Assembly (NCBI GenBank): GCA_027021085.1
Contig: JALUVB010000216.1
Coordinates: forward strand, 1 to 14,644
DNA length: 14,644 nucleotides
Source: a bacterium
Lineage (GTDB): Bacteria > CAIJMQ01 > JAADFP01
Direction: 5' to 3'
Each line of letters opens with the position of its first letter. Position 1 is the stretch's first letter. Shown here in pieces: positions 2,256-14,644 of this stretch. Both the position numbers and the translations under genes were made by a program. The notes below the pieces were generated by a model. The model was given only the letters and a program-made list of their open reading frames with translations, was not told where the DNA came from and made no database searches.

Positions 2256-3833
2256 ATGTGTGCTGAGGTTTACAGTGTGGGTGAACCGTATAGGCTATCT
2301 GGACATCGTATAGTTTTTACCAACTGGTACTATGTGCGGCCGGGTACTTTCGGTTGGTACGATGAAAAAGGGCAGTGTGTGACTGTGAGAGGTGCACAAG
2401 GTCCACTTGAGGCCCGGATGAAAAGTTTTGATTGTCCCTGGGGAATTCGCCTGTCTGTAAAAAATGCTCTCCGTTCAGGTCCGATTCTTAAAGCAGAGCG
2501 TCCCTGGGAAGAGGGTGGAGCTGCGATTATTACTATTATCAAGGAAGGGAGCCTTTACCGTGCCTGGGGAAATACAGGCTGGGGTGATTTGAAAGAGAGG
2601 GGAGAAAGGTATTTCTGCTATTTTGAATCAAAAGACGGCATACATTGGGAGCGGCCGAATTGTGGTGTAGTGGAGTATGGTGGAAATCGCAATAACAATT
2701 TATTGGACAATAAAGGCGGCACGGTTTTTATAGACCCCTCTGCCCCTGTTTCTGAGCGCTATAAGTGGATATCCATTGACCATTTTACCCGGGAAGAATA
2801 CGAGGAATATTGCCAACGTAGGCCTGATGCAGTTGACCCGAGGTACAGGATAACAGATAAATACTTCCTGGGCGTCCGCGGTGCTGTTTCTCCCGATGGG
2901 ATTCACTGGACAATATTGCCCGAGCCCCTGGTAATGATGTATTCAGATACACAAATAGTAGCATATTACGACACGTTTCTGAAAAAGTATGTTGCTTACT
3001 TCCGCGATTGGATGATAGGTAAACAGAGGGAAGAGGCAACAGATGATACTCCAGAGGAGAAAGCTATAAAATGGCAGAGATGGATATCCATTGGCCGGCG
3101 GGCTATTGGTAGAGGTGAGACCAGCGACTTCCGTAATTTTCCTCTTTCGGAATTAATCGTAGAGCCTTCTCCAGAATGGCCTCCGTACCAGGTGCTTTAT
3201 ACCAACTGTAAGACCACTATCCCGGGAGCACCTGACCACCATTTGATGTTTCCTGCCGTGTGGGATACGGCAGATGATACCACCCATATCCGGGTGCTTT
3301 CCAGCCATGATGGCAAAATATGGAATTATATCCCGGGTGCACCTATTTTGGTGACGGCCAGTTTCGGAGAATGGGATGGGGGTTGTGTCTTTGCTTCTCC
3401 CAATCTTATCGAGTTGCCAAACGGAGACTTTGCCTTGCCTTACAATGGGTTCAATGTTCCACATAAGTATCCTCGCAGAAGGGCACGGAGAGCCTGCGGG
3501 TATGCTTTATGGCCTAAAGGACGCCTGGTGGCTCTGGAGGCACCGGAAAAGGGGGAATTTTCCACCGTGGCAGTTATTCCTCCCGGCGATAAATTGCTTA
3601 TCAATGCAGTTACCAAACGTGCCGGGTATATTTTAGTTGAGGCGGCAGATTTAGCAGGTAAGCCGATCCCGGGGCGGGAGTTTGAGAATGCAGTACCAAT
3701 TTTCGGTGACCAACATAAAACTCTTGTGGTATGGAAAGGTCACAATAATTTGGGTATAGAGGCAGGAGAAGGAGTTATTCTCCGTTTCAAGCTGGAGAAA
3801 GCTTCTATCTATGCCCTGGAGTTTGAGAAATGA
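2256..3833 (+). CDS. Cytosolic GH32/GH43-like five-bladed beta-propeller protein, putative glycosidase
   Basis: The 525-residue product has no signal peptide and no membrane segment. Three evenly placed blade motifs of the type SxDGxxW appear at about residues 125-131 (SKDGIHW), 212-218 (SPDGIHW) and 350-356 (SHDGKIW). They resemble Asp-box/propeller repeats and the blade motifs of GH32/GH43/GH68-type proteins. RDW at 250-252 sits where GH32-like proteins often have an R-D pair, and GRRAIGRGETSDF (280-292) resembles a segment I recall from uncharacterised planctomycete homologues. The C-terminal part, about 440-525 (INAVTKRAGYILVEAADLAGKPIPG onward), looks like the beta-sandwich appended to GH32 proteins. 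The catalytic triad was not assigned with confidence, so hydrolase activity is inferred. Its stop overlaps a possible ATG of the next gene, and the next gene probably starts 39 bases later, suggesting coupled expression with the secreted glycosidase. Confidence 0.75.
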   Translation: MCAEVYSVGEPYRLSGHRIVFTNWYYVRPGTFGWYDEKGQCVTVRGAQGPLEARMKSFDCPWGIRLSVKNALRSGPILKAERPWEEGGAAIITIIKEGSLYRAWGNTGWGDLKERGERYFCYFESKDGIHWERPNCGVVEYGGNRNNNLLDNKGGTVFIDPSAPVSERYKWISIDHFTREEYEEYCQRRPDAVDPRYRITDKYFLGVRGAVSPDGIHWTILPEPLVMMYSDTQIVAYYDTFLKKYVAYFRDWMIGKQREEATDDTPEEKAIKWQRWISIGRRAIGRGETSDFRNFPLSELIVEPSPEWPPYQVLYTNCKTTIPGAPDHHLMFPAVWDTADDTTHIRVLSSHDGKIWNYIPGAPILVTASFGEWDGGCVFASPNLIELPNGDFALPYNGFNVPHKYPRRRARRACGYALWPKGRLVALEAPEKGEFSTVAVIPPGDKLLINAVTKRAGYILVEAADLAGKPIPGREFENAVPIFGDQHKTLVVWKGHNNLGIEAGEGVILRFKLEKASIYALEFEK

Positions 3834-7765: not shown

Positions 7766-7887
7766 TTGCACTGAGTTACAGGATAGGTTGGTAGGAGATG
7801 GCGTTAAATAAATAGCAGAACTTAAAATAAGCAGCAGAGCAGGTTAAAAATACTTCCCTAATGCTGTTCACCGGAAATAGAAGAAAA

Positions 7888-8973
7888 ATGCGAAAAGATA
7901 TTCAGGAAGTTATTAATAAGCACAAGGATTTCTGGAAGTTAAAGCCAGTTAGTCGTCCCCTTATAGGTTATTGTATGGGAGGCTGGAGTCAGATGCAGCT
8001 GTATGAAAGCGGGAGAAAGACTTTGCCCACCGGGTTGCTTGAGCCGGATATGCTCAAGCCGGAGCTTTTTCTCCCGGATTACGAAAAAATTCTTACCTGC
8101 AACAATATTCTTCAGGATGACCTGGTACATTCTGCCGAACCTTTTCCTGCCATCCCCTGGATGGAGGCCATAATTGGCTGCCCGATTTATAATTCAGGGG
8201 AAAACATCTGGTCAGAGCCGCTATCTGATTCCCTGGGTGCACTGGAGCAAATCCGCTATAACCCTAACTCGCCCTGGGTAGAAAAGTACTGGGAATTTAT
8301 CGATGTTCTCTCTTTGGAGTTTGGCAGTCAATATCCGGTAGCCCAGGCAATTCTGCGCGGTCCTTCTGACATGCTCTCGGCTGCCATAGGAGAGGCCAAA
8401 TTTATTTATGCTTTACATGATAACCCGGAGCAAATGTCCCGCATTGCCCGTAATTTTACGGAAATTCACAATGAGTTTTTGCAGGAACAGGTAAAAAGGC
8501 TGCCGGAATTTCAGGGCGGATACGTAATCGGGCAGTATCACATCTGGTGCCCCGGCAGATGTAGCCGTTTGCAGGAAGATGCCGTAGCTTTGCTCTCGCC
8601 CGGCCTGTACAAGCAATTTTTCCAGAGCCTGGACCGGGAGGTGGCAAAGGTAACCGAGTTCAACCTGATTCACCTACATACCACTTCCCTGTTCCTGCTT
8701 GATTTGTTCCTGGAGATTGATGGATTAAAAGCTATCCAGGTTAGCCTGGACAGCGGCGGTCCCGGGCTGGAAGATATCCTGGAACCACTAAAAAAGATTC
8801 AAAGAGCGGGGAAACGGCTGGTGATAAAGGGTGTTTTAGACGAGGCAGCAGTCGGTAGGGCACAGGAAGAATTGAGTGTCCGGGGGCTTTGTATTGAAGC
8901 AGTGGTAAAAGATGTTGACGAAGCAAGGGCACTGCAAGATGTTTTTACCAGACACGATAAATGGGATGGTTAA
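7888..8973 (+). CDS. Uroporphyrinogen decarboxylase (URO-D) superfamily protein, function unknown
   Basis: From 7888 the product is 361 residues, the usual size for this TIM-barrel superfamily. It includes heme-pathway HemE and corrinoid or coenzyme M methyltransferases such as MtaA and CmuA. Numbering from the upstream ATG at 7861, RGPSDMLSAAIGEAKFIYAL (166-185) and QEDAVALLSPGLYKQFF (238-254) are typical URO-D segments, followed by HLH (271-273), IQVSLDSGGPG (292-302) and a late Cys344 in RGLCIEA. Methyltransferase members bind zinc with H-x-C...C; here the pattern is H-x-H...C, so metal binding is possible but altered. HemE is unlikely because of the glycan context. No good ribosome binding site precedes 7861, and the 7888 start (MRKDIQEVINKHKDFW) fits family N-termini better; it has only a weak AGAAG ahead. 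About 95 to 120 bases separate it from the preceding gene, with no clear terminator. It may act in C1 transfer from a methylated sugar, but this is speculative. Confidence 0.8.
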   Translation: MRKDIQEVINKHKDFWKLKPVSRPLIGYCMGGWSQMQLYESGRKTLPTGLLEPDMLKPELFLPDYEKILTCNNILQDDLVHSAEPFPAIPWMEAIIGCPIYNSGENIWSEPLSDSLGALEQIRYNPNSPWVEKYWEFIDVLSLEFGSQYPVAQAILRGPSDMLSAAIGEAKFIYALHDNPEQMSRIARNFTEIHNEFLQEQVKRLPEFQGGYVIGQYHIWCPGRCSRLQEDAVALLSPGLYKQFFQSLDREVAKVTEFNLIHLHTTSLFLLDLFLEIDGLKAIQVSLDSGGPGLEDILEPLKKIQRAGKRLVIKGVLDEAAVGRAQEELSVRGLCIEAVVKDVDEARALQDVFTRHDKWDG

Positions 8974-9137: not shown

Positions 9138-9188
9138 GTGTCCGGTAATGGCCTGGGCGAGCCCGATATGGGTAAAGAGAAAAGTGTA

Positions 9189-11765
9189 ATGAGCAATTAT
9201 AGAGTCCACCTGATACCGCATTTTCATTATGACGTGGTCTATTGTGATACCTACGAGGGATACTTGAAAATATCGCTGGATAACCTGATTGAGATGTGCA
9301 ATCTAATGGATAAGCATCCGGAATACAAATTCCTTATTGAACAGGTTATCCTGCTCAGGGAATTCTGGGAAAGATTTCCGGAGCACCGGGCAGGGTTAAG
9401 AGAGTTAGCCGCCCAGGGACGCATAGAAGTAGCTCCCGGAATGTTCGTTATGCCGGATATGAATTTAATAAACGGCGAGTCGCTTATCCGCCAGGTGGAG
9501 ACGGGCGGAAGATGGCTTGAGGAGAAGTTGGGTTTTTCCCCCCACACCTGCTGGATAGCTGACTGCTGGGGTCATCATGCCCAGTTACCCCAGGTTCTTA
9601 AAAAATGCGGCTATAAATATTATGCTTTCTCCCGGGCTATGCGTCCGGATTTAACAGATAAAAGCGAGTTTTTCTGGCAGGGGCTTGATGGCACTGCCAT
9701 GCTCACCCACTGGATGCCGGCCGGTTACAACGCAATTGTTTTTCACGGCTGGACCTATCTTCCCCCGGATGAGGAAAATCCGCATCTTAAGTTGGAAGGG
9801 ATAAGTGCAGAAGAGTACGACCTCGATAAATTATCCCGGGTGCTGGGGAAATTATCCCGATACGCCACGGGAGAAATAATGCTGTTGGGAAACGGGAGTG
9901 ATTTTGCCCGTCCCCAGGCAAGTGCTCCTAATCTAATTAAGGAGTGGAACAAGCGCCATCCGGATAAAAAGATAACATTTGCTCTGCCCGGGGAGGTTTT
10001 CCGGGCCTGGGAGGAGGAGGGAAAGAATATTCCCTCTATTTCTGCTGATTTGAATCCTCTTTTCCAGGGGACCTATTGCACCCGTATAGATTTGAAACAG
10101 CAAAATCGGTTTTTGGAGAATTATATCGAGATAGCGGAAAAGTTATCCGCCTGCATTCTAAAAGCGGATAAGAGAGTTGCCTGCCGGGTAGAAGAGGCTA
10201 CAGAACTGATGCTCTATAACCAGTTCCACGACATCATCTGCGGCAGCCTCATAGACGAAGCCTACCAGGATTCTTTGGGCAAATACGAGCAGGCAAAGAA
10301 GCTGGTTAAGGAGGCAATAAACTTATCTATGGACGAGTTTATGGAGATAGAGAAAGATGGTAACTTAGATTTGCTTATCTTTAATTCCATGGCCAAAAAG
10401 AGAACAGATGTGGTTGTTGCCAGTTTGAGTTTCCATCAGGATGGAGTAAAGGGAGTGAAGATAACCGACGGAGAGGGAAGAGAGATTCCGGTGCAAATCC
10501 TGAGAAGCAAATCATCTTTGCGGAATGGCATACCCCAGAATACAGAGTTCTCCTTTATCCTGCTTGGAGAAGCTCCTCCCCTGGGCTATAAATGTTATAG
10601 AGTAGAATTGAGCACACAGGAGAGGGAACCCTATCACACCTCGTTAAAAGCACAGGGAAGAGTAATAGAAAACCGCTTTTACCGGCTGGAGATAGCAGAT
10701 AGCGGAACGATTAAAAGCCTTGTGCACAAGGAAAGCGGCCAGGAATTTGTGGACCCGGAGAGACCCTATTTCAACGACCTTTTATTCCAGGTTGACCAGG
10801 GTGATTTCTGGGAATATTACCAGGCACCGGTGGATGGAGAGAGGAGAAGTATTCGTCCCTACCCTGACCCCTATCCTTTAACCCGGGGAGAGAGGATACC
10901 CTACAAAATTAAAGCTAAAGAGAAAGTGTTTGCTCATCAGAACCCGCATAGGGTGGAAATTGTTGAAGCTGGCCCGGTTCGACTAACGGTGAAAGTGGAA
11001 GGTAAAATAGATTTCTGGGCTACTACCTGGGAATATGTGCAGTATATTTATCTCTACGACCAACTCGAGCGCATAGACTTCCGCACGGAATTCATCCCGG
11101 CCGGGCGGCAATATCGCCTGCGAGTTTGTTTCCCCACCAGCATCAAGCAAGGCAAAATCCGTTACGAGATTCCTTTTGGAATAGAGAATAGACCGGAAGG
11201 CGAGTATCCTGCCTTAAACTGGATGGATTACCAGGATGATACTAAGGGTATATGTATTTTGAACCGGGGGATTCCCGGCAACAATGTAACTGACGGAGTA
11301 ATGATGCTTTCCCTGTTCCGGGCAGTGGATATGGGGCCGGGTAAAAGGGAGTGCCCGGATAGTTATGCAGCGGGGAAAAGGCAGGTTTTTGCCTACAGCC
11401 TGGTGCCCTTTCTTATGGAAGATAAGCGGTATCATCCTTCTCTTCTGGGAAGAGAATTCAACCAGCCGCTGAACAGCCGTATAGGAAAATTAAAAGAGAG
11501 CCTTAACCCGGAGAAAAGCTTTTTCGCCCTCCGGCCGGACAATGTGGTGCTCTCCTGTGTAAAAAAATGGGGAGAGGGAATTATGCTGCGCTTTTATGAA
11601 GCAGAGGGAGTAAAGGCGAGTTTTGCACTGGAACTCCCTGCTCATTTTACTCAGGTATATGAAACCGATTGTTTAGGCAAGGACGGATTACAGGTAGAGC
11701 TTTCCCATAACAGAATTGAGGGGATAATTAACCCCTTTGAGATAAAAACCTTTGTGTTGAGGTAA
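9189..11765 (+). CDS. Cytosolic GH38 family alpha-mannosidase-like glycosidase
   Basis: The protein is 858 residues from 9189, or 875 from a GTG at 9138, a normal length for GH38 retaining alpha-mannosidases. These use a zinc ion and an Asp nucleophile to remove alpha-linked mannose. In the 875-residue numbering, HFHYD (28-32) matches the H-x-H-x-D zinc site, with His30 and Asp32 as expected ligands. WIADCWGHHAQLPQ (139-152) carries the nucleophile/ligand Asp142, and YNQFHD (360-365) supplies His364. The order is an N-terminal barrel domain (about 20-285), a helical middle domain (about 300-400) and a large beta-sandwich C-terminal half (about 410-875). The usual DPFG or DSFG after the nucleophile is DCWG here, and the Trp three residues after the zinc Asp is Tyr35, so substrate preference may differ. 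No signal peptide is seen. The start at 9189 (MSNYRVHLIPHFHYD) fits the family; the extra 17 residues from 9138 look unrelated. The next gene begins 3 bases after its stop. Confidence 0.88.
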   Translation: MSNYRVHLIPHFHYDVVYCDTYEGYLKISLDNLIEMCNLMDKHPEYKFLIEQVILLREFWERFPEHRAGLRELAAQGRIEVAPGMFVMPDMNLINGESLIRQVETGGRWLEEKLGFSPHTCWIADCWGHHAQLPQVLKKCGYKYYAFSRAMRPDLTDKSEFFWQGLDGTAMLTHWMPAGYNAIVFHGWTYLPPDEENPHLKLEGISAEEYDLDKLSRVLGKLSRYATGEIMLLGNGSDFARPQASAPNLIKEWNKRHPDKKITFALPGEVFRAWEEEGKNIPSISADLNPLFQGTYCTRIDLKQQNRFLENYIEIAEKLSACILKADKRVACRVEEATELMLYNQFHDIICGSLIDEAYQDSLGKYEQAKKLVKEAINLSMDEFMEIEKDGNLDLLIFNSMAKKRTDVVVASLSFHQDGVKGVKITDGEGREIPVQILRSKSSLRNGIPQNTEFSFILLGEAPPLGYKCYRVELSTQEREPYHTSLKAQGRVIENRFYRLEIADSGTIKSLVHKESGQEFVDPERPYFNDLLFQVDQGDFWEYYQAPVDGERRSIRPYPDPYPLTRGERIPYKIKAKEKVFAHQNPHRVEIVEAGPVRLTVKVEGKIDFWATTWEYVQYIYLYDQLERIDFRTEFIPAGRQYRLRVCFPTSIKQGKIRYEIPFGIENRPEGEYPALNWMDYQDDTKGICILNRGIPGNNVTDGVMMLSLFRAVDMGPGKRECPDSYAAGKRQVFAYSLVPFLMEDKRYHPSLLGREFNQPLNSRIGKLKESLNPEKSFFALRPDNVVLSCVKKWGEGIMLRFYEAEGVKASFALELPAHFTQVYETDCLGKDGLQVELSHNRIEGIINPFEIKTFVLR

Positions 11766-11768
11766 AAA

Positions 11769-13181
11769 ATGAAACTATCTGATATTCTGGCATCTTTGCC
11801 ACCGGTAAGAGCAATTGCGGATGCGCAAGGGAATATCCGCAAACAGCTAAAAGAGTCGGGTAAGCATTTAGTGGTGGTAGACGATGACCCTACCGGGACA
11901 CAGACCGTGCATGGAGTGATGGTATACACGGATTGGTCAATAAAAGAATTAAGCCAGGCACTGACTTCGGAAGAGCCGGTTTTTTATATCTCCACCAATT
12001 CCCGCAGTCTGAAGCGGAAGCAGGCAGAAGAACTCAACTACCAGCTGGGCAGGGATTTGACAGAGGCGGCAAAATTGCAGAACAAAGAGGTGATAATAGC
12101 TTCCCGCAGTGACAGCACCCTGCGGGGACATTTTCCCCATGAGGTAGAAGCTATCCTTTCCGGGCTGGGCTGGAAGGATGTAGATGGTATAATCCTGCTC
12201 CCCGCATTTTTTGAGGGAGGCAGGTATACCATCAATGATATTCACTGGGTCGATGAAGGAGAAAGAATTGTCTCCGCTGAAAAAACCGAATTTGCCCGGG
12301 ACCCGGTGTTTGGTTACAAACACGGCAACCTGCGGCTCTGGGTGGAAGAGAAAACAGGAGGAAGGGTAAAAGCCGAAGAAGTTCCTTCTATTTCCCTGGA
12401 GACTATTCGCCAGGGAGGGCCTGAAGCAGTGGCGGAGGAGTTGATGTGTGTGGAGGGATGCCTGCCGGTAATTGTCAATGCTGCCTGCTACCGGGACCTG
12501 GAGGTATTTGTCCTGGGACTTTTATCTGCTGAGTCTAAGGGCAAACGCTTCATCTATCGCTGTGCAGCTTCTTTTGTGAAAGCGCGCGGCGGGTTCCCGG
12601 ATAAAGGGCTCCTTACCTGTGAAGAGTTAAAGGCGGGAAAGGGCCCCGGCCTTATAGTGGTGGGTTCCTACGTGGAAAAGACCTCTCGCCAGCTTGCCTG
12701 TCTTCTTGATTCCCATCTGGGAATAGGGGTGGAACTGCGGGTGGAGAAGCTGCTGGAAGCAGGTGAGCGGAATAGTGAAATCCGGTTTGTGGTGGGGGAG
12801 GTGAATAAATACCTGTCCAGAGGTAAGCTGGTGGCTGTTTACACCTCCCGGGATAAAAAGATTGATGGAGAAAAACACTTCCTGGAAATTGGCAGAGTAA
12901 TCATGTCCAGCCTATGCCGCGTGGTAGAAGGGATTAAAGCCTCCCCCGGCTTCCTGGTGGCCAAGGGTGGGATTACCAGCATTGAGATAGCCCGCTCAGC
13001 CCTGGGAGTCAAAAAGTCTCTTGTTCTGGGGCAGATAGTTCCGGGGGTTCCTGTATGGCGGCTGGGTGCGGAGAGCCGCTGGCCTGGCATTCCCTACGTG
13101 GTTTTCCCTGGCAATGTAGGAGATGAGAGAACGTTATCTCGGGTAGTTACGGTCTTTAAAAAACAAGAAAAGGAGGGATAA
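11769..13181 (+). CDS. DUF1537 four-carbon acid-sugar kinase family protein
   Basis: The 470-residue product has the two-domain layout of the DUF1537 kinase family (OtnK, DtnK, DenK). These cytosolic enzymes phosphorylate C4 acid sugars such as 3-oxo-tetronate, threonate or erythronate with ATP. The N-terminal sugar-binding domain shows the hallmark VVVDDDPTGTQT (35-46) and SRSDSTLRGHFPHE (112-125). The C-terminal nucleotide-binding domain shows VVGSYVEKTSRQ (297-308), LVAKGGITSIEIA (396-408), GQIVPGVPVWR (421-431) and PGNVGDE (447-453). All expected signatures look intact. GAGG at the end of the preceding GH38 gene (11759-11762) serves as its ribosome binding site, and the gap to that gene is 3 bases, so the two are translationally linked. 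Known relatives neighbour class II aldolase OtnC, isomerase OtnI or PdxA2; here the neighbours are a racemase-family protein and a DapA-type aldolase. The exact acid substrate cannot be read from sequence. Confidence 0.9.
   Translation: MKLSDILASLPPVRAIADAQGNIRKQLKESGKHLVVVDDDPTGTQTVHGVMVYTDWSIKELSQALTSEEPVFYISTNSRSLKRKQAEELNYQLGRDLTEAAKLQNKEVIIASRSDSTLRGHFPHEVEAILSGLGWKDVDGIILLPAFFEGGRYTINDIHWVDEGERIVSAEKTEFARDPVFGYKHGNLRLWVEEKTGGRVKAEEVPSISLETIRQGGPEAVAEELMCVEGCLPVIVNAACYRDLEVFVLGLLSAESKGKRFIYRCAASFVKARGGFPDKGLLTCEELKAGKGPGLIVVGSYVEKTSRQLACLLDSHLGIGVELRVEKLLEAGERNSEIRFVVGEVNKYLSRGKLVAVYTSRDKKIDGEKHFLEIGRVIMSSLCRVVEGIKASPGFLVAKGGITSIEIARSALGVKKSLVLGQIVPGVPVWRLGAESRWPGIPYVVFPGNVGDERTLSRVVTVFKKQEKEG
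13170..13176 (+). promoter_or_regulatory. Ribosome binding site of the racemase-family gene, embedded in the kinase stop region
   Basis: AAGGAGG sits within the last codons of the kinase gene, 8 bases before the ATG at 13185. It couples translation of the two genes and fixes the downstream start. Confidence 0.7.
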
Positions 13182-13184
13182 GCA

Positions 13185-13856
13185 ATGAGTAAAGGTAAAA
13201 AAGTTGTATTTATTATTCACACCAGCAGCGTATCCGTGGACCACCTGAACCAGTTGTTTGCGGAACTGGCTCCCGAGGTTGTGGTGCGTAATATTATAGA
13301 CGACAGCCTCCTGCCGGAGGTTCTCTCTAACGGGGGGGTAACTACGGGTGTATGCCGGAGGATATGTGCTTACGCGGTGCAGGCAGAAGCTGCCGGGGCT
13401 GATTTAATCTTCAATCAGTGCTCCTCGGTGGGAGAAGCCGCAGATATAGCGGCGAAGCTGGTGAAAGTGCCCCTGGTAAAAGTGGATGAGAAAATGGCCG
13501 AGGTAGCCTGTAAAACAGGCAAACGGATAGGGGTGGTAGCCACGCTGCAAACCACCCTGGGCCCCACGGTTCGCCTGATAAAAAGTACGGCAAAAAAACT
13601 GGATAGAGAAATAGAGGTAACGGAAAAGCTTTGCGAGGGTGCCTTTGACCGACTGATTGCCGGAGATAGAAAGACGCATAACCGGATGGTCATAGATGCC
13701 ATTCAAGAATTAGCTAAGAAGGTGGATGTGGTGGTATGTGCCCAGGGTAGCATGGTAGCGCTGTTGCCGGATTTGGGGGAAACCCCTGTGCCAGTCTTAA
13801 CCAGCCCGCGCCTGGGAGTGGAGAGGGCGGTAGAAGTGCTCTCTTCTATGGAATGA
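13185..13856 (+). CDS. Asp/Glu/hydantoin racemase superfamily protein
   Basis: The 223-residue cytosolic product has the length and two-lobed pattern of the cofactor-independent Asp/Glu racemase superfamily, in which two cysteines move a proton at an alpha carbon. Cys79 in IFNQCSSVGE and Cys185 in VVVCAQGSM occupy the two catalytic positions, one per lobe. GKRIGVVATLQTTLGPT (112-128) is the conserved mid-protein strand and turn. The C-terminal PVLTSPRLGVERAV also fits. The family includes aspartate, glutamate and hydantoin racemases, arylmalonate decarboxylase and maleate isomerase, so the reaction could be racemisation, isomerisation or decarboxylation of an acid. It lies 3 bases after the kinase gene and 17 bases before the aldolase gene, so an acid-sugar substrate or epimerisation step is plausible. 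That assignment is inference. Confidence 0.85.
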   Translation: MSKGKKVVFIIHTSSVSVDHLNQLFAELAPEVVVRNIIDDSLLPEVLSNGGVTTGVCRRICAYAVQAEAAGADLIFNQCSSVGEAADIAAKLVKVPLVKVDEKMAEVACKTGKRIGVVATLQTTLGPTVRLIKSTAKKLDREIEVTEKLCEGAFDRLIAGDRKTHNRMVIDAIQELAKKVDVVVCAQGSMVALLPDLGETPVPVLTSPRLGVERAVEVLSSME

Positions 13857-13873
13857 ACGGAGAATAGCGAACG

Positions 13874-14644
13874 ATGAAGAATGCAAAACAGAACAATTAT
13901 GACTGGCTGTGTGGTGTAGTAGTGCCTATGGTGACACCGCTTGCAGAGGGCGAAAAACTTGACGAGATAGCTCTGCGGCGGATTATCTCAGAGCAGGTGG
14001 ACGCTGGCGTGCATGCCTTATTCGTATTAGGGTCGGTAGGCGAGGGACCCATGATGGACAGCCGGATGCGGCGTCGGGTAATTGAATTAACCGTAGAAGC
14101 AGTAAGAGAACGTATCCCGGTGCTGGCCGGTGCCTCGGACAACTCGGTAGTGCTGGTCCTGAAACGTCTAAAAGAAATGGCAGAGATGGGGGTGAAAGCG
14201 GGTGTCTGCACCCTTCCCTATTATGGGTGGTATGATAATCCCGCATCAGCCATAGAGTTTTTCACCAGCGTGGCTGATGCATCGCCCATCCCTATCATTG
14301 TGTATAACCTGCCCCGGGTGGTGGGAGCCTCCATCAAGCCAGAGACGACACGCAGGCTTTACCATCATCCCAACATAGCCGGGATTAAAGACACTGATAC
14401 TGATATCAGGGCTATGGAGGCTATTGCCAGCGACCCTGGCCGACCCCATAAGTTTAAATATCTTTTTGGGAATTCCTCCCTAGCCTACAAATTATTTAAA
14501 GCCGGGGCAGATGGCATTGTATGTGCTCCTGCTAATGTTATGCCTAATCTTTGTGTAGCTCTTTACCAAAACTATTGCCGGGGAAACATGGAAGTGGCCA
14601 GGAAGTTGAGCGATTTTCTCTCGGAACTGTGCAAGATATTTCGG
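13874..14644 (+). CDS. DapA/NanA-family Schiff-base aldolase (partial, runs off the window)
   Basis: The frame from ATG 13874 stays open for 257 codons to the window end; family members are about 290-310 residues, so roughly 35-50 residues are missing. These TIM-barrel enzymes cleave or condense pyruvate-type 2-oxo acids through a lysine Schiff base. Visible are VPMVTPL (17-23), GSVGEG (53-58, the GTTGE-type loop), PYYGWYD (115-121), Tyr144 in IVYNLPRVVG, the Schiff-base Lys172 in GIKDTDTD, and FGNSSLAYKLFKAGADGIVC (198-217). In E. coli DapA an Arg five residues after the catalytic Tyr binds the second substrate carboxylate; the equivalent here is Val149, with Arg148 next to it. The loop also has Val55 where DapA has Thr. 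Both argue against dihydrodipicolinate synthase and for a 2-keto-3-deoxy sugar acid aldolase or dehydratase. A GGAG near 13860 may be its ribosome binding site. Tight linkage to the kinase and racemase supports an acid-sugar role. Confidence 0.88.
   Translation, partial: MKNAKQNNYDWLCGVVVPMVTPLAEGEKLDEIALRRIISEQVDAGVHALFVLGSVGEGPMMDSRMRRRVIELTVEAVRERIPVLAGASDNSVVLVLKRLKEMAEMGVKAGVCTLPYYGWYDNPASAIEFFTSVADASPIPIIVYNLPRVVGASIKPETTRRLYHHPNIAGIKDTDTDIRAMEAIASDPGRPHKFKYLFGNSSLAYKLFKAGADGIVCAPANVMPNLCVALYQNYCRGNMEVARKLSDFLSELCKIFR

Follow-up and report, generated by a model that had tools for sequence, protein, structure and literature searches.

Kinases of the DUF1537 family take part in several acid-sugar pathways. 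In the D-apionate pathway the DUF1537 kinase OiaK is paired with the RuBisCO-like OiaX. The four-step L-threonate/D-erythronate pathway (Zhang et al. 2016, as outlined in PMC12540250 and PMC10580937) comprises LtnD or DenD, OtnI, the kinase OtnK and OtnC, and the three-step L-threonate pathway of Arthrobacter sp. ZBG10 (Guo et al. 2024, as outlined in PMC12540250) comprises LtnD, the DUF1537 kinase 2-OtnK and 2-OtnC, of the F_bP_aldolase type, with no OtnI in that outline. Here we describe a further variant of these pathways, found on a 14,644-bp stretch of bacterial DNA (contig JALUVB010000216.1, hereafter the window) and built around an uncharacterised partner protein. This protein, encoded at 13185-13856, has the fold of Asp/Glu racemases and will be referred to as RAC. 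A first-pass annotation of the same DNA had listed OtnC/OtnI with LtnD, or PdxA2, as the partners of DUF1537 kinases; these are indeed known partners, but the list was incomplete, lacking OiaX and 2-OtnC.

The window is an entire contig (C216) from a 94% complete draft genome that spans 1.93 Mb on 307 contigs. It carries the following genes, in the order GH38-kinase-RAC-lyase and separated by 3, 3 and 17 bp:

9138..11765, + strand: GH38-family glycosidase, alpha-mannosidase-like (PF01074 E 7e-48, PF07748, PF09261); the true start is perhaps slightly downstream.
11769..13181, + strand: DUF1537 (SBD_N/NBD_C) sugar-acid kinase, 470 aa (PF07005 E 3e-52, PF17042 E 2e-33).
13185..13856, + strand: RAC, Asp/Glu-racemase-fold protein, 223 aa (PF01177 E 1e-16).
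13874..14644, + strand: class I lyase of the dihydrodipicolinate synthase/N-acetylneuraminate lyase (DHDPS/NAL) family, 257 aa, open at the contig end (PF00701 E 4e-46).

The open reading frame (ORF) calls and the Pfam matches agree with the last three genes as first annotated, including the 3 and 17 bases that separate them. The close packing of kinase, RAC and lyase also stands, but the GH38 gene had been overlooked. No more than 3 bases separate its stop codon from the kinase ATG, thus the packed unit counts four genes, of which GH38 is probably the first. A strong Shine-Dalgarno sequence (aaggaggg) precedes the RAC gene, and a promoter and terminator scan of the window gave a signal no better than in shuffled sequences. 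As the window is the whole contig and the lyase gene is cut at its end, the sequence 3' of the lyase is unreadable.

We consider it fairly likely that these genes form a glycan-linked module of sugar-acid catabolism, with RAC as the epimerase or isomerase of an oxo sugar acid that is then phosphorylated by the kinase and cleaved by the DapA-like lyase. GH38 and other hydrolases would free a sugar, to be converted to an oxo-aldonic acid. RAC would then move or invert the proton beside the carbonyl, either by C3 epimerisation of a 2-oxo acid or by 2-oxo/3-oxo isomerisation, the latter being the OtnI step in other pathways. The kinase would phosphorylate the terminal hydroxyl, and the lyase would bind the oxo group as a Schiff base and cleave a C-C bond, most likely by a retro-aldol reaction that yields a phosphorylated aldehyde together with a product of the pyruvate type. 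A sequence of epimerisation, phosphorylation and cleavage had been suggested in the first pass; it is plausible and gains comparative support from the linkage of RAC to kinases described below, while the substrate, the order of the steps and each reaction are what we infer from the genes.

RAC is a general partner of DUF1537 kinases, recurs in several phyla and is itself uncharacterised. A pattern scan of the genome contigs with the RAC protein gave two loci only, and a wider genome search was used for the survey. A RAC match was present in 48 of 104 Paenibacillaceae genomes. We read 49 Paenibacillaceae RAC loci with their flanks, counting a kinase when it lay at most 6.5 kb away, and compared them with 14 loci of sibling PF01177 paralogs from the same family. 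A DUF1537 kinase accompanied RAC at 41 of the 49 loci and none of the 14 sibling paralogs (Fisher p 9e-9, for loci that are not independent). The two commonest operon types in Paenibacillaceae are RAC-RLP-kinase, where RLP is a RuBisCO-like protein, and RAC-FBA-GH38-OtnC-OtnK, where FBA is a class II fructose-bisphosphate aldolase. Most often the RAC of Paenibacillaceae adjoins an OiaX-like and OiaK-like pair, as known from the D-apionate pathway. The RLP and the kinase of this operon type are closest to the NCBIfam models of OiaX and OiaK, yet under their cut-offs, and the window differs further in having no RLP and a kinase of another clade.

Elsewhere the order is RAC-kinase-FBA in Rhodococcus antarcticus, RLP-kinase-RAC in Rufibacter, GH38-RAC-FBA in Deinococcus QL22 and SDR-RAC-kinase-FBA in Deinococcus taeanensis. 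The oxidoreductase of the latter was considered as an LtnD-type enzyme and rejected, NCBIfam assigning it to the short-chain dehydrogenases/reductases (SDR). A Bacillales genome (L184, 6264-9201) has RAC-kinase-BKACE, i.e. a beta-keto acid cleavage enzyme (BKACE) in the place of the RLP or aldolase. Besides the window, Deinococcus has a GH38 gene adjoining RAC, and so, repeatedly, do Paenibacillaceae. The enzyme breaking the C-C bond beside RAC and the kinase is therefore variable: RLP, class II FBA with OtnC and GH38, BKACE or DapA. That RLP, FBA, OtnC, BKACE and DapA-type enzymes occupy one position fits the idea that each of them could cut an oxo-acid close to its carbonyl. In an unbiased sample of 386 genomes we found 6 RAC matches including that of the window genome; the other five had no DUF1537 gene nearby, as judged by tblastn with the kinase references used here.

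The genes could also be co-transcribed without sharing a pathway, RAC and the lyase acting on amino-acid or cell-wall substrates. An aspartate aminotransferase-like gene does lie upstream in the window, and some RAC homologues adjoin amino-acid genes or NifS/NifU: in a Dehalococcoidia genome (L004, 5244-6663) two tandem RAC genes are flanked by NifS-like and NifU-like genes. The strong and repeated linkage of RAC to DUF1537 and sugar genes, across separate RAC clades and phyla, makes this explanation quite improbable.

RAC had been described as a two-cysteine racemase-family protein, which the alignment contradicts. C79 is the sole invariant Cys (71/71 relatives). The site of the second catalytic Cys of allantoin and hydantoin racemases, located by profile alignment to solved racemases, is occupied by Q187, which belongs to the motif AQxSM and is itself invariant in 71/71. 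The second cysteine of the window protein, C185, lies two residues away from this position and is replaced by Leu in 64 of the 71 relatives. The AlphaFold2 (AF2) model (pLDDT 90.8) has the racemase fold, with Z up to 22.8 (3s81); in it, C79 and Q187 both follow a strand and precede the next helix. Thus RAC shares with the two-cysteine Asp/Glu, hydantoin and allantoin racemases (PF01177) the fold and the first catalytic Cys, but has an invariant Gln instead of the second, and on its sequence it does not belong with the two-cysteine racemases. A centre with a single cysteine speaks against classical two-cysteine racemisation; it would allow isomerisation, and also epimerisation if some other group acted as the second base. 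We propose that RAC is an epimerase or isomerase of an oxo sugar acid. Gln in place of the second Cys was also considered as a mark of the kinase-linked RACs, an idea discarded because the sibling paralogs have AQxSM as well.

The lyase retains, in alignment to 1o5k, the Schiff-base Lys and the catalytic Tyr of the YN.P motif, which places it in the DHDPS/NAL superfamily. It has these residues in common with the aldolases of that superfamily (2-keto-3-deoxy acid aldolases, YagE, NAL); it falls below every equivalog cut-off, and its C-terminus is missing. The residues specific to DapA are absent: GSVGEG replaces GTTGES, with its Thr pair, and Val replaces Arg138 (YNLPRVVG). A canonical DapA is encoded separately in the same genome. 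The window enzyme is hence an extra paralog of the DHDPS family, in agreement with its first description as a Schiff-base lyase without DapA substrate features.

The kinase fits the DUF1537 family over its full length, with 178 bits for PF07005 (cut-off 25) and 117 bits for PF17042 (cut-off 28), and is the only DUF1537 protein of the draft genome. It reaches 30.5 bits with the OtnK model NF043035 (cut-off 350), with no OtnC or OtnI partner in the window, and 79 bits with the DtnK model NF047819 (cut-off 450), with no PdxA homologue in the draft genome. It has no match to the OiaK model NF042436 (cut-off 700), belongs to a separate clade and has no RLP in the window. In a tree that contains no characterised 2-OtnK sequence its clade stands apart from OtnK, OiaK and DtnK (SH-aLRT 96-99). 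The absence of PdxA2 and OtnC partners, on which the first-pass proposal depended, and that of LtnD extend to the genome as far as it was searched: the draft holds no PdxA, the Aldolase_II match inspected is AraD beside AraB and not OtnC, and the best PF03446 match is 6-phosphogluconate dehydrogenase and not LtnD, OtnI being outside the genome-wide search. Two class II FBA genes lie elsewhere in the genome. The likeness to the four-step pathway, as far as its outline goes, is that a DUF1537 kinase would act on an oxo sugar acid ahead of C-C cleavage, with a RAC that could take the OtnI step. The differences are a kinase far under the OtnK model and the lack of OtnC, OtnI and LtnD beside it.

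Other members of the kinase clade sit in GarR/LtnD-kinase-GntP operons, often with FBA, one of them on an Arthrobacter plasmid. We read 23 loci of this clade, counting RAC or LtnD/GarR within 7 kb. LtnD/GarR without RAC was found at 17 of them, RAC without LtnD/GarR at 5 (including the window) and both together at 0 (Fisher p 2e-4, for loci that are not independent). This exclusion suggests that RAC is part of another way into the oxo-acid. In gene content the clade operons match the three-step L-threonate pathway as outlined, thus the window kinase is probably 2-OtnK-like. OtnI is absent from both, and the window departs from that pathway, compared here by its description, in having RAC and a DapA-family lyase and neither LtnD nor FBA beside the kinase.

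These results bring in a route limited to C4 acids, as a variant of the three-step route for L-threonate/D-erythronate. RAC would convert 2-oxo-D-erythronate to 2-oxo-L-threonate, the 2-OtnK-like kinase would form the 4-phosphate, and a DapA-like Schiff-base decarboxylase replacing 2-OtnC would yield dihydroxyacetone phosphate (DHAP). The clustering of the kinase with those of LtnD/GarR-kinase-FBA-GntP operons, which have the gene content of the Guo et al. 2024 pathway as outlined in PMC12540250, speaks for it, as do the mutual exclusion of RAC and LtnD/GarR beside the clade kinases and the SDR-RAC-kinase-FBA order of D. taeanensis, where the SDR weakly matches D-erythronate dehydrogenase (22 bits). 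However, it is unusual for an enzyme of the DHDPS family to decarboxylate a C4 oxo-acid, GH38 and the other nearby glycosidases point to a larger sugar, and the 2-OtnK grouping is based on gene content and on a tree without a characterised ZBG10 sequence. We regard the C4 route as rather doubtful.

The same operons bear on whether the kinase is a glycerate kinase. In such a Gar-type pathway the lyase and RAC would yield hydroxypyruvate or tartronate semialdehyde, to be reduced to glycerate and phosphorylated. Relatives of the kinase do lie beside GntP and a reductase above the NCBIfam cut-off for tartronate semialdehyde reductase, but LtnD and GarR are one family. Moreover, the Bacillales copies often also have FBA, superfluous for a glycerate kinase, and the window has no reductase. 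This makes a glycerate kinase very unlikely.

A check of gene neighbourhoods, proposed with the first annotation, finds the trio again in a sugar-acid module of Paenibacillus cymbidii (L005). There RAC, DapA, kinase and Gfo/Idh genes stand in a row, after ABC transporter and AraC regulator genes. Among the RAC loci examined the exact trio of RAC, DapA and kinase is found only in the window and P. cymbidii. A further locus in Paenibacillaceae lacks a kinase and combines RAC with Gfo/Idh, DapA and L-fucose isomerase. Between the window and P. cymbidii the RACs share 61% identity, and together with the Dehalococcoidia pair they form one clade (SH-aLRT 99). The literature searched, which did not include the original papers of Zhang 2016 and Guo 2024, gave no description of the trio as a pathway, as the first pass had supposed, and nothing relevant on a racemase with an erythronate, apiose or four-carbon acid sugar kinase.

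RAC also has a possible counterpart. At three loci without RAC (L165, L166 and L168) a glyoxalase/VOC protein, confirmed by PF13669 in L166 and L168, is encoded directly ahead of a KIN5-type kinase related to that of P. cymbidii, with FAA hydrolase and Gfo/Idh-like genes near. It may substitute for RAC there.

Several observations weigh against the sugar-acid module that we favour. The window and P. cymbidii share only 34% identity between the kinases and 27% between the DapA-family lyases, so that the two trios may serve different substrates; the combination was either kept or rebuilt from different parts. The Dehalococcoidia RACs, nearest to that of the window, have no kinase nearby, and several Chloroflexota RACs are without one. 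The presence of AQxSM in kinase-free sibling paralogs means that it marks a wider PF01177 branch and not sugar acids by itself. There is no entry dehydrogenase in the window, and none is evident among the inspected ORFs and Pfam matches of the RLP-type RAC loci. Finally, the contig belongs to a metagenome-assembled genome (MAG) and could be misbinned.

Upstream of the packed unit the window also contains a gene for a GH123-related protein and the following gene:

2256..3833, + strand: protein without known family, 525 aa; a 54% identical homologue is encoded upstream of the P. cymbidii trio.

This protein matched nothing in Pfam or NCBIfam and nothing usable in the PDB, and its fold prediction (pLDDT 32) was left unused. 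It is possibly a hydrolase of the pathway, perhaps of a new glycan hydrolase family. A 370-aa ORF at 7861-8973, within the glycosidase cluster, was read as uroporphyrinogen-decarboxylase (UroD)-like, without a Pfam match; a stretch 27% similar to it was found in the RAC region of another genome (L135). Positions 1-1040 of the window hold no genes, and the spurious frames there resemble repeat-derived sequence. Elsewhere in the genome (L189, 193-2901) a gene read as LarA-like (nickel racemase superfamily) directly precedes a 6-phosphogluconate dehydrogenase gene; gluconate/mannonate interconversion has been reported for LarA homologues (PMC11770544).

RAC may, somewhat more tentatively than the module itself, found a new activity in the Asp/Glu-racemase fold: a one-Cys, one-Gln epimerase or isomerase of oxo sugar acids, serving several DUF1537 clades as an interchangeable front end with swappable RLP, class II aldolase, BKACE or DapA back ends. 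If so, a function would be given to a widespread group annotated merely as “aspartate/glutamate racemase family protein”, with a warning against reading its members as amino-acid racemases. A missing step, the preparation of the substrate in DUF1537-kinase sugar-acid operons without OtnI or LtnD, would become testable. The presence of RuBisCO-like, FBA, BKACE or DapA enzymes beside one conserved pair would suggest mix-and-match routes for glycan-derived acids.

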